From assembly GCF_016278385.1 (NCBI RefSeq), contig NZ_JADQBY010000004.1, forward strand, positions 26,298 to 90,297: 64,000 bases of DNA, written 5' to 3'. Numbering within the stretch: position 1 is the stretch's first letter; the number at the start of each line of letters is the position of its first letter. Source of the stretch: Methanolobus sp. (GTDB lineage: Archaea > Halobacteriota > Methanosarcinia > Methanosarcinales > Methanosarcinaceae). A model generated the notes under the pieces. It worked only from the letters and a program-made list of their open reading frames with translations. It searched no databases and was not told where the DNA came from. Positions 55,471-58,759 of this stretch are shown piece by piece. A program made the position numbers and the translations under genes.

Positions 55471-56616
55471 TTAGCGGTCAAGCTCAAGGTGAATCTTTCT
55501 GAACTCAGAATCCCTCATTAAACACGGGCCTGAAGTGAAAACAGGATCTTTGTATATCTTTTTCCATATGGATGCAAGAGGTTGATCGTTAATATTCCCG
55601 TATGATTTTGGCATGCATGCACAAGGCAGAACGTTGCCTTCAGGAGTGACATGGAGCCATTTTCTTCCTGCAAAGCAGCCCATTTTCCTTATAATCTGAG
55701 GTATAGGGAAAACACGAGGACCTTCTGCATGAGATGCACGCTCTACAAAATCATCGAACTTTTTCAGGCCTTCGGATGAGAGGACTTCCTTTTCATGACC
55801 CTGCCACCGTCCTGTTGGAACAATCTCATAGAAAGATAGTTCGTGAACACCAAGATCCTTTGCAAGCTCATAGAAAGCATCGAGTTCATCAACATTCCTT
55901 GGAGACAGGACAACATAAATACCGACTAAAATACCTGCATCCAGACCATATTTTATGGCATTGACAGCATCTCTAAACACCCCGGGCCTTCCACGCATGA
56001 AATCGTGACCTTCTTCATTTGCACTATCAAGACTTACACTGAGCATGGAAAGACCTGCATCTTTCAGGCTTGATGCACGCTCAGGAGTCATCCCTACACC
56101 AGACGTGAAAAGACCCGGAATTGCCCTGGACTGGTCAACATAACTGATGAGGTCTTCAAGACCATCATATAGCAGGGGCTCCCCACCATCGAATATTATG
56201 AGAGTTGTACCCATATCCAGAGTCTGATCGATGACACTCTTCACAACATCCGGACTGAGCCTTGCCTTATTCTTAGTGTCCGGGAGAGCACAGTGTAAAC
56301 ACCTGTTAGGACACTCCTCTGTAATTGAAATCGTTATTTGCTCAGGAACAAATTTGCCCCTCATAGCACTCATCTGGCTTGATACAAGCCTGTCAAAAGC
56401 CTTGCTGGGTATGGGAGGCATCCAGGTGGAATATATCAACTGGTTATTTTCCACCTTTGAAGGTTTTGTATCCTCAAATATCTCCATCATATCCGATACA
56501 AAAGAACCCATTACAGAAGATGCAATACCAGAGGTCTTCATCTTCACCCGATCATTTTCGATCTGGGCATATACTTTAAAAAATGGGTTTTTGTAAAAGT
56601 AATATTTGTGTTTCAT
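55471..56616 (-). CDS. Radical SAM protein with partial SPASM-like C-terminus
   Basis: TEECPNRCLHC CX3CX2C motif, FDGGEPLLY; C-terminal GCFAGRKWLHVTPEGNVLPCACMPKSYGNI...GPC. Confidence 0.88.
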   Translation of the reverse strand: MKHKYYFYKNPFFKVYAQIENDRVKMKTSGIASSVMGSFVSDMMEIFEDTKPSKVENNQLIYSTWMPPIPSKAFDRLVSSQMSAMRGKFVPEQITISITEECPNRCLHCALPDTKNKARLSPDVVKSVIDQTLDMGTTLIIFDGGEPLLYDGLEDLISYVDQSRAIPGLFTSGVGMTPERASSLKDAGLSMLSVSLDSANEEGHDFMRGRPGVFRDAVNAIKYGLDAGILVGIYVVLSPRNVDELDAFYELAKDLGVHELSFYEIVPTGRWQGHEKEVLSSEGLKKFDDFVERASHAEGPRVFPIPQIIRKMGCFAGRKWLHVTPEGNVLPCACMPKSYGNINDQPLASIWKKIYKDPVFTSGPCLMRDSEFRKIHLELDR

Positions 56617-56619
56617 TGC

Positions 56620-57777
56620 TCACTTCATCCTGAAGATAGCCCTGTATGAAAATATTGAAGACGGGTTATTTTTCAATATCATCTTTGATACCTGTAATGC
56701 CTGGTTAAAAGGACTACCGCCAAGTACCGTAAGATCCTCCCCTTCAAAGACTTTCATCATTCCATTGATCTCCCAGTCACTCATTTTCCTGAGAGTCTCC
56801 ATGGCAAATCGTCCAAGGTAGTACTCGGTCCTGTATTCATTATTCCAGAGTCTCCTGTATTCTGAAAGGAATCTCTTTGAAGTATCATCTTTTGAGATGG
56901 CTGCGGCTGCAACATCACCGCACATCTGTCCCGCATGCATGCCATATCCTATGCCGGACTGAGCAGCAGAACCACCTACAACCATAACACCATCGGCAAT
57001 TATCTCACCGGGAATGGCAACTATTGGATCACCACCCACGGATTTACTGATAATCTTCACATCGTCGAGCCCTTTAAGTTTCTTGAACCTTTCAAGCCAT
57101 GCATCGAAAAAATCGGAAACATCCATTCCATGCCTGCGGACATACATACCCAAGGTAGCCCTGTTGCCACCGCAAGGAGAATATGTGGATTTCCAGCCAG
57201 GTGCATGATTACCAATATAATATTCAAACAGGTCAGGTTCACCGATGCCTTCAGCCTCTATCTCTGCTTCCAGCGACCAGGCAATATCCTTAGGATATTT
57301 AATAGGTTTCAGACCTAAAAGACCACTTATTCTGGAGTTTATCCCATCTGAAACGATTACGAGCTTACATTTGATCTTACCTTTTGAGGTGCTCACTATG
57401 AAGCCGCCCTCAGTCCTGAGAACATTAAGGACCTCGATTCCGAAACGAACATCTGTACCGGCATCCATTGCCTGTTTAATGTAGAATTCATCGAACTTCT
57501 TACGGTCAAGGAAGTAAGCATCACCTTCAAAAATAACATTCTTACCAGAGGGTGCGATTATATAGGCACCTTTGAGGTTCTTAATAACATAGCTCTGATC
57601 TACTTCTTCGCCGGTCCTATCAAACATTCCTTTGAAAAAAGTGTTTGCAGGATGAGTAGGAACTCCCGCTGCCTCCTTTTTGTCAAGAAGAAGAACTTTG
57701 CAGCCTTTTGCTGATGCATTCCGTGCTGCCATAACTCCTGCAGGAGAAGCTCCTATTACTAAAATATCTGCATCCAT
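56620..57777 (-). CDS. Geranylgeranyl-reductase-like FAD flavoprotein
   Basis: ILVIGASPAGVMAARNASAKGCKVLLLDKK Rossmann motif; APGWKSTYSPCGGNRATLGMYV; VMVVGGSAAQSGIGYGMHAGQMCGDVAA. Confidence 0.85.
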   Translation of the reverse strand: MDADILVIGASPAGVMAARNASAKGCKVLLLDKKEAAGVPTHPANTFFKGMFDRTGEEVDQSYVIKNLKGAYIIAPSGKNVIFEGDAYFLDRKKFDEFYIKQAMDAGTDVRFGIEVLNVLRTEGGFIVSTSKGKIKCKLVIVSDGINSRISGLLGLKPIKYPKDIAWSLEAEIEAEGIGEPDLFEYYIGNHAPGWKSTYSPCGGNRATLGMYVRRHGMDVSDFFDAWLERFKKLKGLDDVKIISKSVGGDPIVAIPGEIIADGVMVVGGSAAQSGIGYGMHAGQMCGDVAAAAISKDDTSKRFLSEYRRLWNNEYRTEYYLGRFAMETLRKMSDWEINGMMKVFEGEDLTVLGGSPFNQALQVSKMILKNNPSSIFSYRAIFRMK

Positions 57778-57802
57778 TTTGAACCTCGTGACTACCTAAT
57801 TA

Positions 57803-58759
57803 TTACCATAAAATACCGGAATATGCCGGAACAAGTATGCAAAGTATTACATCAAGTATGAGAGAACCAAACATGACACCTCTGTATCTGGAGCCCTGGA
57901 GGAACAGTTGTCCACCACGTTTCTGTGTTGGGTTCTTTATAAAATCAAATGACTGTATGAGCATCCATCCACCTGCAAGCAGCGCACCTGCAAAGTATAT
58001 GGGACCAATCTTTGCAGTAATCCCAATGGCTATGGAAGCGATAATCCCTACTGCCCACATAAAAGTTACAAACTTTGATGTTGCCGGGATACCGAATGTT
58101 ACAGGAAATGTGGGTGCACCCCTTGCCCTGTCACCTTCTACGTCCCTTGCCACACCAGATAGTGTGAAACCCCAGTCAGTGAAGCACATCATCAGACCAA
58201 GGAATATTGCAGGAAGCGGAAGAATGGAACCATATGAAGGGTCCTTGAGAATTCCTGCCGGGTCAAATGCCAACCAGATACCAATAGGTACAAGTCCATA
58301 GGCAATTCCCACAGGCACAAAACTAAGAAAAGTCATTCTCTTTGCGAGTTTTGAGTATATACTGATGGTGACAACAGCTATCACAAGAACCACAAAGGAT
58401 TCAGGATTCAGGTAAAGTGCTGCCAAACTGGCTATCAGGAACAGGAATCCCGCATACTTCAATGCCTGATCCCTTCTAAGTTTGTTGGATACAAGCGGAC
58501 GATCTGGAAGGTTTATCTGATCAATATCAATATCACAGCAGTCATTAAATACATAGGAACTTGTGATCGCTGCATAACCTCCGATAACTGCTATTATGAA
58601 CAATATCGGGTCCGGCAGTACTCCTATTGTAAGATAGGATGCCAACAGAGCACTGGCTGCAGGAAGGGCAAGATCCATATCCGCTATCTCCGGTCTTAAC
58701 ATTTCAAGATAGGGATTTCTCGTTTTTGAACCTGAAGTGGAAACCAAGTATATCACCAA
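57803..58759 (-). CDS. UbiA-family prenyltransferase
   Basis: SSYVFNDCCDIDIDQINLPDRPLVSNKL (NDxxDxxxD) and DWGFTLSGVARDVEGDRARGAPTFPVTFG; multi-TM. Confidence 0.92.
   Translation of the reverse strand: MVIYLVSTSGSKTRNPYLEMLRPEIADMDLALPAASALLASYLTIGVLPDPILFIIAVIGGYAAITSSYVFNDCCDIDIDQINLPDRPLVSNKLRRDQALKYAGFLFLIASLAALYLNPESFVVLVIAVVTISIYSKLAKRMTFLSFVPVGIAYGLVPIGIWLAFDPAGILKDPSYGSILPLPAIFLGLMMCFTDWGFTLSGVARDVEGDRARGAPTFPVTFGIPATSKFVTFMWAVGIIASIAIGITAKIGPIYFAGALLAGGWMLIQSFDFIKNPTQKRGGQLFLQGSRYRGVMFGSLILDVILCILVPAYSGILW

Follow-up and report, generated by a model that had tools for sequence, protein, structure and literature searches.

The operon that we describe here, three minus-strand genes of Methanolobus sp. 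encoding a UbiA-family prenyltransferase, a flavoprotein resembling geranylgeranyl reductases (GGRs) and a radical S-adenosylmethionine (rSAM) protein, probably belongs to a pathway that makes methanophenazine, or a carrier of the methanophenazine type, without oxygen. It lies in a 64,000-nucleotide stretch of contig NZ_JADQBY010000004.1 (hereafter the window), in a host genome of 2.88 Mb distributed over 52 contigs. The operon genes are strong candidates because they belong to a set of about seven scattered genes, present in lineages predicted to use methanophenazine and absent from close relatives that rely on menaquinone. Besides UbiA and the GGR-like protein, this set comprises four rSAM proteins, of which rSAM-A is encoded in the window, and a geranylfarnesyl diphosphate (GFPP) synthase. 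The make-up of the set, its protein families, linkage and distribution, and its exclusion with menaquinone synthesis are read from sequence and are well supported; which compound is made, and what each enzyme does, we infer from them.

Among 120 genomes of the order, rSAM-A gave matches at E ≤ 1e-30 in 83, three of which, in family f5, are background (~1e-32), leaving 80. Orthologs of UbiA or rSAM-A occur only in Methanosarcinaceae (f1), in two families of the ANME-2 type (f2 and f3; ANME, anaerobic methanotrophic archaea) and in genome G094. MqnC of the futalosine pathway for menaquinone scored above its cutoff in 33 of the 120 genomes, all of them in families f4 and f5, and in none of the 120 did it coincide with the set. 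In the host, the best MqnC match reached 374.7 bits against a cutoff of 428.1, and no match above cutoff was found in the sampled genomes of Methanothrix, Methanonatronarchaeia and UBA148-type Methanocellales. In a survey of 238 genomes of the class, counted by hand with E < 1e-60 taken as orthology over a background of ~1e-30 to 1e-38, GGR-like orthologs were present in 183 of the 199 genomes outside f4 and genera g13 and g17 of f5 (108/112 in f1, 14/17 each in f2 and f3, 44/50 in the Methanothrix family f6, 2/2 in f39, and G094), the absences being mostly incomplete genomes; they were present in 0 of the 39 genomes of f4 and of f5 g13 and g17. Small f1 genomes (g138, g139) retain the GGR-like gene and three rSAM genes. 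A survey of 345 genomes of the phylum (rSAM, E ≤ 1e-50) recovered the same families together with f11, f15, f17 and f21. Two matches fell elsewhere: that in G193 is likely contamination, and that in G250 stands alone at 33% identity and was placed outside the set.

The hosts of the set include Methanosarcina, Methanolobus, Methanococcoides, Methanohalophilus, Methanomethylovorans, ANME-3, ANME-2, Methanothrix, Methanohalarchaeum and UBA148-type Methanocellales. From their position and the presence of MqnC, among other indications, we take g13 of f5 to be Methanoperedens and f4 to be ethane oxidizers. Published predictions assign methanophenazine to ANME-2a, 2b, 2c and 3, and menaquinone to ANME-1 and Methanoperedens (PMC9012536, PMC5244752), and the distribution of the set agrees with them. 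An earlier note on this DNA had proposed that the operon may build or modify a prenylated redox cofactor, with methanophenazine as one hypothesis, and had suggested comparing producers with nonproducers; that reading withstands the comparison, as only lineages that we take as methanophenazine-type have the set, and relatives of the menaquinone type do not. G094, although placed in the menaquinone family f5, has UbiA, the GGR-like protein, rSAM-A to -C and a prenyl synthase, and no MqnC (L056, L098). It would be an early branch or a misplaced genome, and may mark the point at which one pathway was swapped for the other.

The proposal gains further support from rSAM-B, a paralog of rSAM-A. Directly upstream of its gene lies a polyprenyl synthase whose best match is the GFPP synthase model NF040627, covered from position 2 to 282 of 285 at 330.8 bits, the curated cutoff being 600. 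Because the genome contains just two PF00348 genes, this one included, we take the synthase, by elimination, as the ortholog of MM_0789, the Methanosarcina mazei GFPP synthase. The adjacency recurs in Methanosarcina (G073, G081, G105), Methanothrix (G190, G306) and G094, spanning Methanosarcinaceae and Methanotrichaceae, so that the set is linked to GFPP synthase through rSAM-B in several genera; the operon in the window shows no such linkage. Other neighbors of rSAM-B are ahb heme genes and a CcmE-domain protein, and in Methanolobus and Methanosarcina the GFPP synthase gene sits between those for rSAM-B and the CcmE-domain protein.

The operon had been described as three tightly packed minus-strand genes with gaps of 26 and 3 nt. 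All three open reading frames are present (Table 1), as is the 3-nt gap between the GGR-like and rSAM-A genes; the gap between the UbiA and GGR-like genes is 25 nt. The UbiA open reading frame starts with a TTG at 58759, and a GTG at 58756, which agrees better with the N-termini of the orthologs, is probably the start used. Of 80 loci, 42 have the order TGT-UbiA-GGR-rSAM and a further 11 have UbiA-GGR-rSAM, with proteins 53–97% identical over at least three families, and the arrangement is therefore not due to chance. A promoter scan with a bacterial consensus gave counts at chance level and was not used.

The prenyltransferase is a clear member of the UbiA superfamily, with 144 bits for PF01040 against a cutoff of 34.2. 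The NDxxDxxxD motif reported in the earlier note is accompanied by a second Asp motif, RDVEGD, and both are conserved in the orthologs, which are 65–97% identical and occur in 74 of the 120 genomes of the order (97% in G089). It is one of six UbiA matches in the host genome. Its scores fall below the cutoffs of the models for digeranylgeranylglyceryl phosphate (DGGGP) synthase (PRK12882, 84.8 of 296 bits; PRK12883, 76.3 of 353), and the copy on contig 23, to which it is 21% identical, passes (369.8 bits, cutoff 296). A role as DGGGP synthase was ruled out on these model scores and the separate lipid copy, and the cofactor proposal thus survives a comparison that could have overturned it. No NCBIfam UbiA model gave the window protein more than 105 bits, and in a tree with several long, weakly supported deep branches it groups with its orthologs, apart from the other copies. 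Its nearest solved relative is DGGGP synthase (6m31), found with a query profile that contained the host's own DGGGP synthase. Another of the six copies (contig C49, L004) is broken by an in-frame TAA.

The second protein does have the GGR architecture attributed to it from the sequence. Its best NCBIfam match is the GG-reductase superfamily, at 118 bits under a cutoff of 158.8, and the AlphaFold2 model (Table 1; pLDDT, predicted local distance difference test) matches over its full length first the Thermoplasma acidophilum DGGGPL reductase 3oz2 and then the Sulfolobus GGR 3ATQ, with a template-modeling (TM) score of 0.81 for the latter. The N-terminus contains the Rossmann motif for flavin adenine dinucleotide (FAD). 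GGR activity is defined by two motifs known from the Sulfolobus enzyme, PxxC with the catalytic Cys and the isoprenoid-binding YxWxFP. Unlike 3OZ2 and 3ATQ, the GGR-like protein has neither; profile alignment to 3OZ2 pairs SPVRC with PHPANTFF, and YIWVFP with WKSTYSP. The catalytic Cys is absent in 72 of 74 scorable members, a P(A)(N/D)(T/S)xF motif (PANTxF or PADTxF) is kept in nearly all of 104, and PGWKxxxxPxG replaces YxWxFP in 102 of these. Since this signature is retained at 36–39% identity between Methanolobus and Methanonatronarchaeia or Methanocellales, while the GGR motifs are replaced in nearly all members, the protein is, by sequence, a distinct subfamily that keeps the GGR fold without either active-site motif. 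A role in reducing a prenyl chain is conjectured from its fold and genome context. A CofG-type gene (F420 synthesis) directly precedes the GGR-like gene in two metagenome-assembled genomes (MAGs) of ANME-2/Methanosarcinales, WYZ-LMO14 and UBA261 (L163 2904–3899, L171 3752–4747).

Table 1. Coordinates of the operon genes and their motifs, in positions of the window
Feature	Position	Strand	Remarks
UbiA-family prenyltransferase	57803..58759	(-)	317–318 residues; PF01040, E 5.8e-42; not the genome's DGGGP synthase
GGR-like FAD protein, own subfamily	56620..57777	(-)	385 residues; pLDDT 87.8; 3oz2, TM 0.86
Radical-SAM protein A (rSAM-A)	55471..56616	(-)	381 residues; PF04055 and PF13186
First Asp-rich motif of UbiA, NDCCDIDID (NDxxDxxxD)	58520..58546	(-)	From sequence; kept in the ortholog set
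PTHPANTFFKG in place of the PxxC catalytic-Cys motif	57628..57660	(-)	Aligned to SPVRCGEGLS of 3oz2
APGWKSTYSPCG in place of the GGR YxWxFP isoprenoid-binding motif	57169..57204	(-)	Aligned to YIWVFPKGEG of 3oz2
CX3CX2C [4Fe-4S]/SAM motif of rSAM-A (C102, C106, C109)	56290..56313	(-)	Kept in 54/55 aligned long paralogs
Partial SPASM region of rSAM-A, C314, C332 and C365 conserved	55522..55677	(-)	Alignment of paralogs

rSAM-A scores above the Pfam cutoffs of both its domains and below every NCBIfam rSAM cutoff, and its N-terminal ~90 residues have no Pfam match. The CX3CX2C motif and the partial SPASM-like tail recognized in the earlier note were both borne out. A full SPASM domain has seven Cys and two auxiliary clusters; rSAM-A passes PF13186 with three conserved auxiliary Cys, which would suffice for one auxiliary cluster at most. 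Nearly all genomes that carry rSAM-A encode three long paralogs, namely A, B (host contig 6) and C (host contig 39). In addition to CX3CX2C and the three auxiliary Cys, they share this N-terminal region, unmatched in Pfam, with conserved S63, P67, P68, P70, F74 and R76, giving the invariant signature SxxxPPxPxxxFxR. The closest known proteins by profile and PDB comparison are AhbD, NirJ2 and PqqE, which are alike in the rSAM core and the SPASM-type C-terminus; in contrast to these, A, B and C have their own N-terminal region, its signature and the three conserved auxiliary Cys, and reach no more than 30% of the AhbD cutoff. In a tree, rSAM-C joins one paralog of two distant lineages, Methanonatronarchaeia and UBA148-type Methanocellales, with a support of 98; the A and B proteins of Methanosarcinia pair with each other, and the remaining two distant-lineage paralogs form another pair.

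The fourth protein, rSAM-D, is shorter and was found in the clusters of the distant lineages. The host has a 58% identical ortholog (contig 29), and of the tested genomes with the set only G094 (67% complete) gave none; identities between lineages are 46–64%. In f4 (G003) and f5 (G007), rSAM-D gave background matches only (~1e-19). The nearest family to rSAM-D is the uncharacterized PTO1314 radical-SAM family (131–140 bits, cutoff 306; L205 9325–10389, L060 10003–11079), a likeness that may hint at a related pathway elsewhere among the archaea.

UBA148/Serpentinarchaeum-type Methanocellales encode, in one region, an NMT1/THI5-like protein, a UbiA-like protein, an rSAM protein, the GGR-like protein, rSAM-D and two further rSAM proteins; in Methanonatronarchaeia the same genes are split over two clusters. 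The UbiA-like protein of these lineages has no Pfam match and an hhalign probability of 62.6%. Its Asp-containing segments are conserved at the expected places, nine helices are predicted, and a low-confidence AlphaFold2 model (pLDDT 49) has UbiA proteins as its top PDB matches (E ~0.02); we therefore call this divergent protein UbiA-like only. The NMT1/THI5-like protein (~293 residues; L060 14373–15254 and relatives), encoded beside it in both lineages, was dropped as a core member, as the host genome contains no ortholog (best identity 23%). Contig L105, recorded as Bathyarchaeota CSMAG_2017, carries a full UBA148-type cluster with 66% GGR identity, and is probably from a misnamed Methanocellales MAG.

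Behind the GGR-like gene of Methanothrix come a gene for a 174-residue protein and then those for shikimate kinase and chorismate mutase; HMG-CoA reductase and prephenate dehydratase are encoded close by. This neighborhood is consistent with a chorismate-derived aromatic partner for an isoprenoid. The 174-residue protein (L177 7391–7915, L174 3422–3946) has no Pfam or NCBIfam match. Near the UbiA gene of Methanothrix lies an rSAM gene (L070 4077–5063) that reads as MoaA-like; it was rejected as a member of the set.

We propose a pathway with rSAM-A to -D and the GGR-like flavoprotein as its core. A dedicated UbiA would complete it, together with the GFPP synthase beside rSAM-B in most Methanosarcinia. 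A 2,3-dihydropentaprenyl ether needs a UbiA enzyme, a reductase of a single double bond and a C25 synthase. The four rSAM proteins would couple and tailor a chorismate-derived aromatic precursor into a hydroxyphenazine-like ring, UbiA would move the C25 chain of GFPP onto the ring hydroxyl to form the ether, and the GGR-like flavoprotein would saturate the first prenyl double bond to give the 2,3-dihydro-pentaprenyl ether; alternatively, it may carry out a redox reaction on the ring. We consider it fairly likely, if a little less so than the assignment of the operon to the pathway, that UbiA is the etherifying enzyme. For an action of the GGR-like protein on the chain, the chances seem evenly balanced. 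It may equally well be true or false that an archaeal phenazine or phenazine-like respiratory carrier is made without oxygen by four dedicated rSAM enzymes unrelated to PhzA-G in Methanosarcinia, Methanonatronarchaeia and UBA148-type Methanocellales, the whole gene set having been exchanged for the futalosine menaquinone pathway in Methanoperedenaceae and the ethane oxidizers.

The futalosine pathway (MqnA-E and MqnP, with MqnE and MqnC as rSAM enzymes) fills the same role in the sister lineages, and the proposed pathway would resemble it in that an aromatic head group is made anaerobically by rSAM enzymes and then prenylated by a UbiA-family enzyme. The proteins differ, however: the rSAM proteins of the set are SPASM/AhbD-like and not MqnC/MqnE-like, and the window UbiA scores 47–65 bits on MqnP models with cutoffs of 375–430. 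Bacterial PhzA-G would yield a phenazine ring from chorismate, but the families of the set are not Phz families, and a PhzF domain has been found in only some methanophenazine methanogens (PMC5244752). MM_0789 is named in the Methanohalophilus mahii genome paper as the enzyme specifically involved in methanophenazine synthesis (PMC3017947), and is the only one assigned to this compound; it makes the C25 chain only, and genes for the ring, the ether and the reduction had been lacking. The pathway beyond this synthase has been described as unidentified (PMC6315138, PMC8546582, PMC3017947), and we found no publication naming the present genes for methanophenazine in the open-license literature, most subscription papers and all preprints lying outside the search. 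In cytochrome-containing methanogens and, as predicted, in most of the marine ANME archaea, it is methanophenazine that carries the electrons for energy conservation. Outside the phylum surveyed here, cytochrome-b methanogens with a GFPP synthase are described in Ca. Methylarchaeales of the Thermoproteota (PMC9478090). The small set would open methanophenazine synthesis to Methanosarcina genetics and could serve as a genomic marker for predicting whether an uncultured archaeon uses methanophenazine or menaquinone. It also points to new radical-SAM chemistry.

Several observations weigh against methanophenazine as the product. The ANME-2a/b-type genomes G001 and G025 have no GFPP synthase and keep rSAM-B with a CcmE-type neighbor (L079 9015–10607, L087 8113–9714). 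They, Methanohalarchaeum (G137) and Met33H (G172) each have a single prenyl synthase, and because the GFPP synthase is missing or only one prenyl synthase is present, the carrier of these four genomes may need another chain. Chain saturation is not assured, since the GGR-like protein is without the GGR Cys and aromatic motif. Met33H has the complete cluster (L100, L059–L064), but motif searches of its complete sequence found no Mcr signature and no HdrB/HdrD CCG domain, so that the product is not definable by HdrDE. Elsewhere in its genome, Met33H encodes RnfC-like proteins, a NiFe hydrogenase and multiheme cytochromes, and a carrier between Rnf and the multiheme cytochromes is plausible there; a comparable non-methanogenic Methanocellales genome is Met12 (PMC11176372). 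Shared ancestry inflates the phylogenetic profile, and the contrasts in it that inform are those with f4 and f5 within the order and with the two distant lineages. Chemical evidence for methanophenazine comes from few species, and most lineages are credited with it by genomic prediction.

Some of these observations would be accommodated if the set made a prenylated carrier other than a phenazine, such as a quinone analog, at least in Methanonatronarchaeia and UBA148/Serpentinarchaeum-type Methanocellales, the Methanosarcinia version being derived. The very divergent UbiA-like protein and the additional NMT1/THI5-like protein of these lineages speak for this, as do the lack of a second prenyl synthase in G172 and G137 and of HdrDE-type domains in one lineage member. 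Yet the rSAM and GGR-like proteins are orthologous or co-paralogous everywhere, as seen in the identities of rSAM-D (46–64%) and the GGR-like protein (36–39%) and in the well-supported rSAM-C clade, which favors one product class, and we regard a non-phenazine carrier as unlikely.

We judge it to be quite improbable that the set modifies a tetrapyrrole, such as a heme that is prenylated or changed in another way for the b-type cytochromes. AhbD and NirJ2 are the best NCBIfam relatives of the rSAM proteins, rSAM-B adjoins the ahb and CcmE-domain genes mentioned above, and the window UbiA scores 78.9 bits to heme O synthase. However, the true AhbD of the host is a separate gene (595.6 bits), and A, B and C lie far under the AhbD cutoff. 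Methanoperedenaceae are rich in cytochromes, and the set is absent from the f5 family taken as such; with the separate AhbD, this weakens a heme O or heme-modification reading. Because ccmE is reported to be truncated in some Methanosarcina strains (PMC9084895), its linkage looks incidental, and both the GFPP synthase and the exclusion with MqnC would be left unexplained. Least probable, and only a slim prospect, is an unusual membrane lipid, such as a modified archaeol, a polyprenol or a C25 lipid, in place of a redox carrier. In archaeal lipid synthesis, UbiA and GGR form the classic pair, and a DGGGP synthase is the nearest solved relative of the window UbiA, with the composition of the query profile noted above. 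Against this, the host encodes a separate DGGGP synthase as well as background GGR paralogs, the GGR-like protein is without the isoprenoid-binding motif, and neither the exclusion with MqnC nor the four radical-SAM enzymes are accounted for. The unusual lipid that the earlier note had entertained as an alternative is now less likely.

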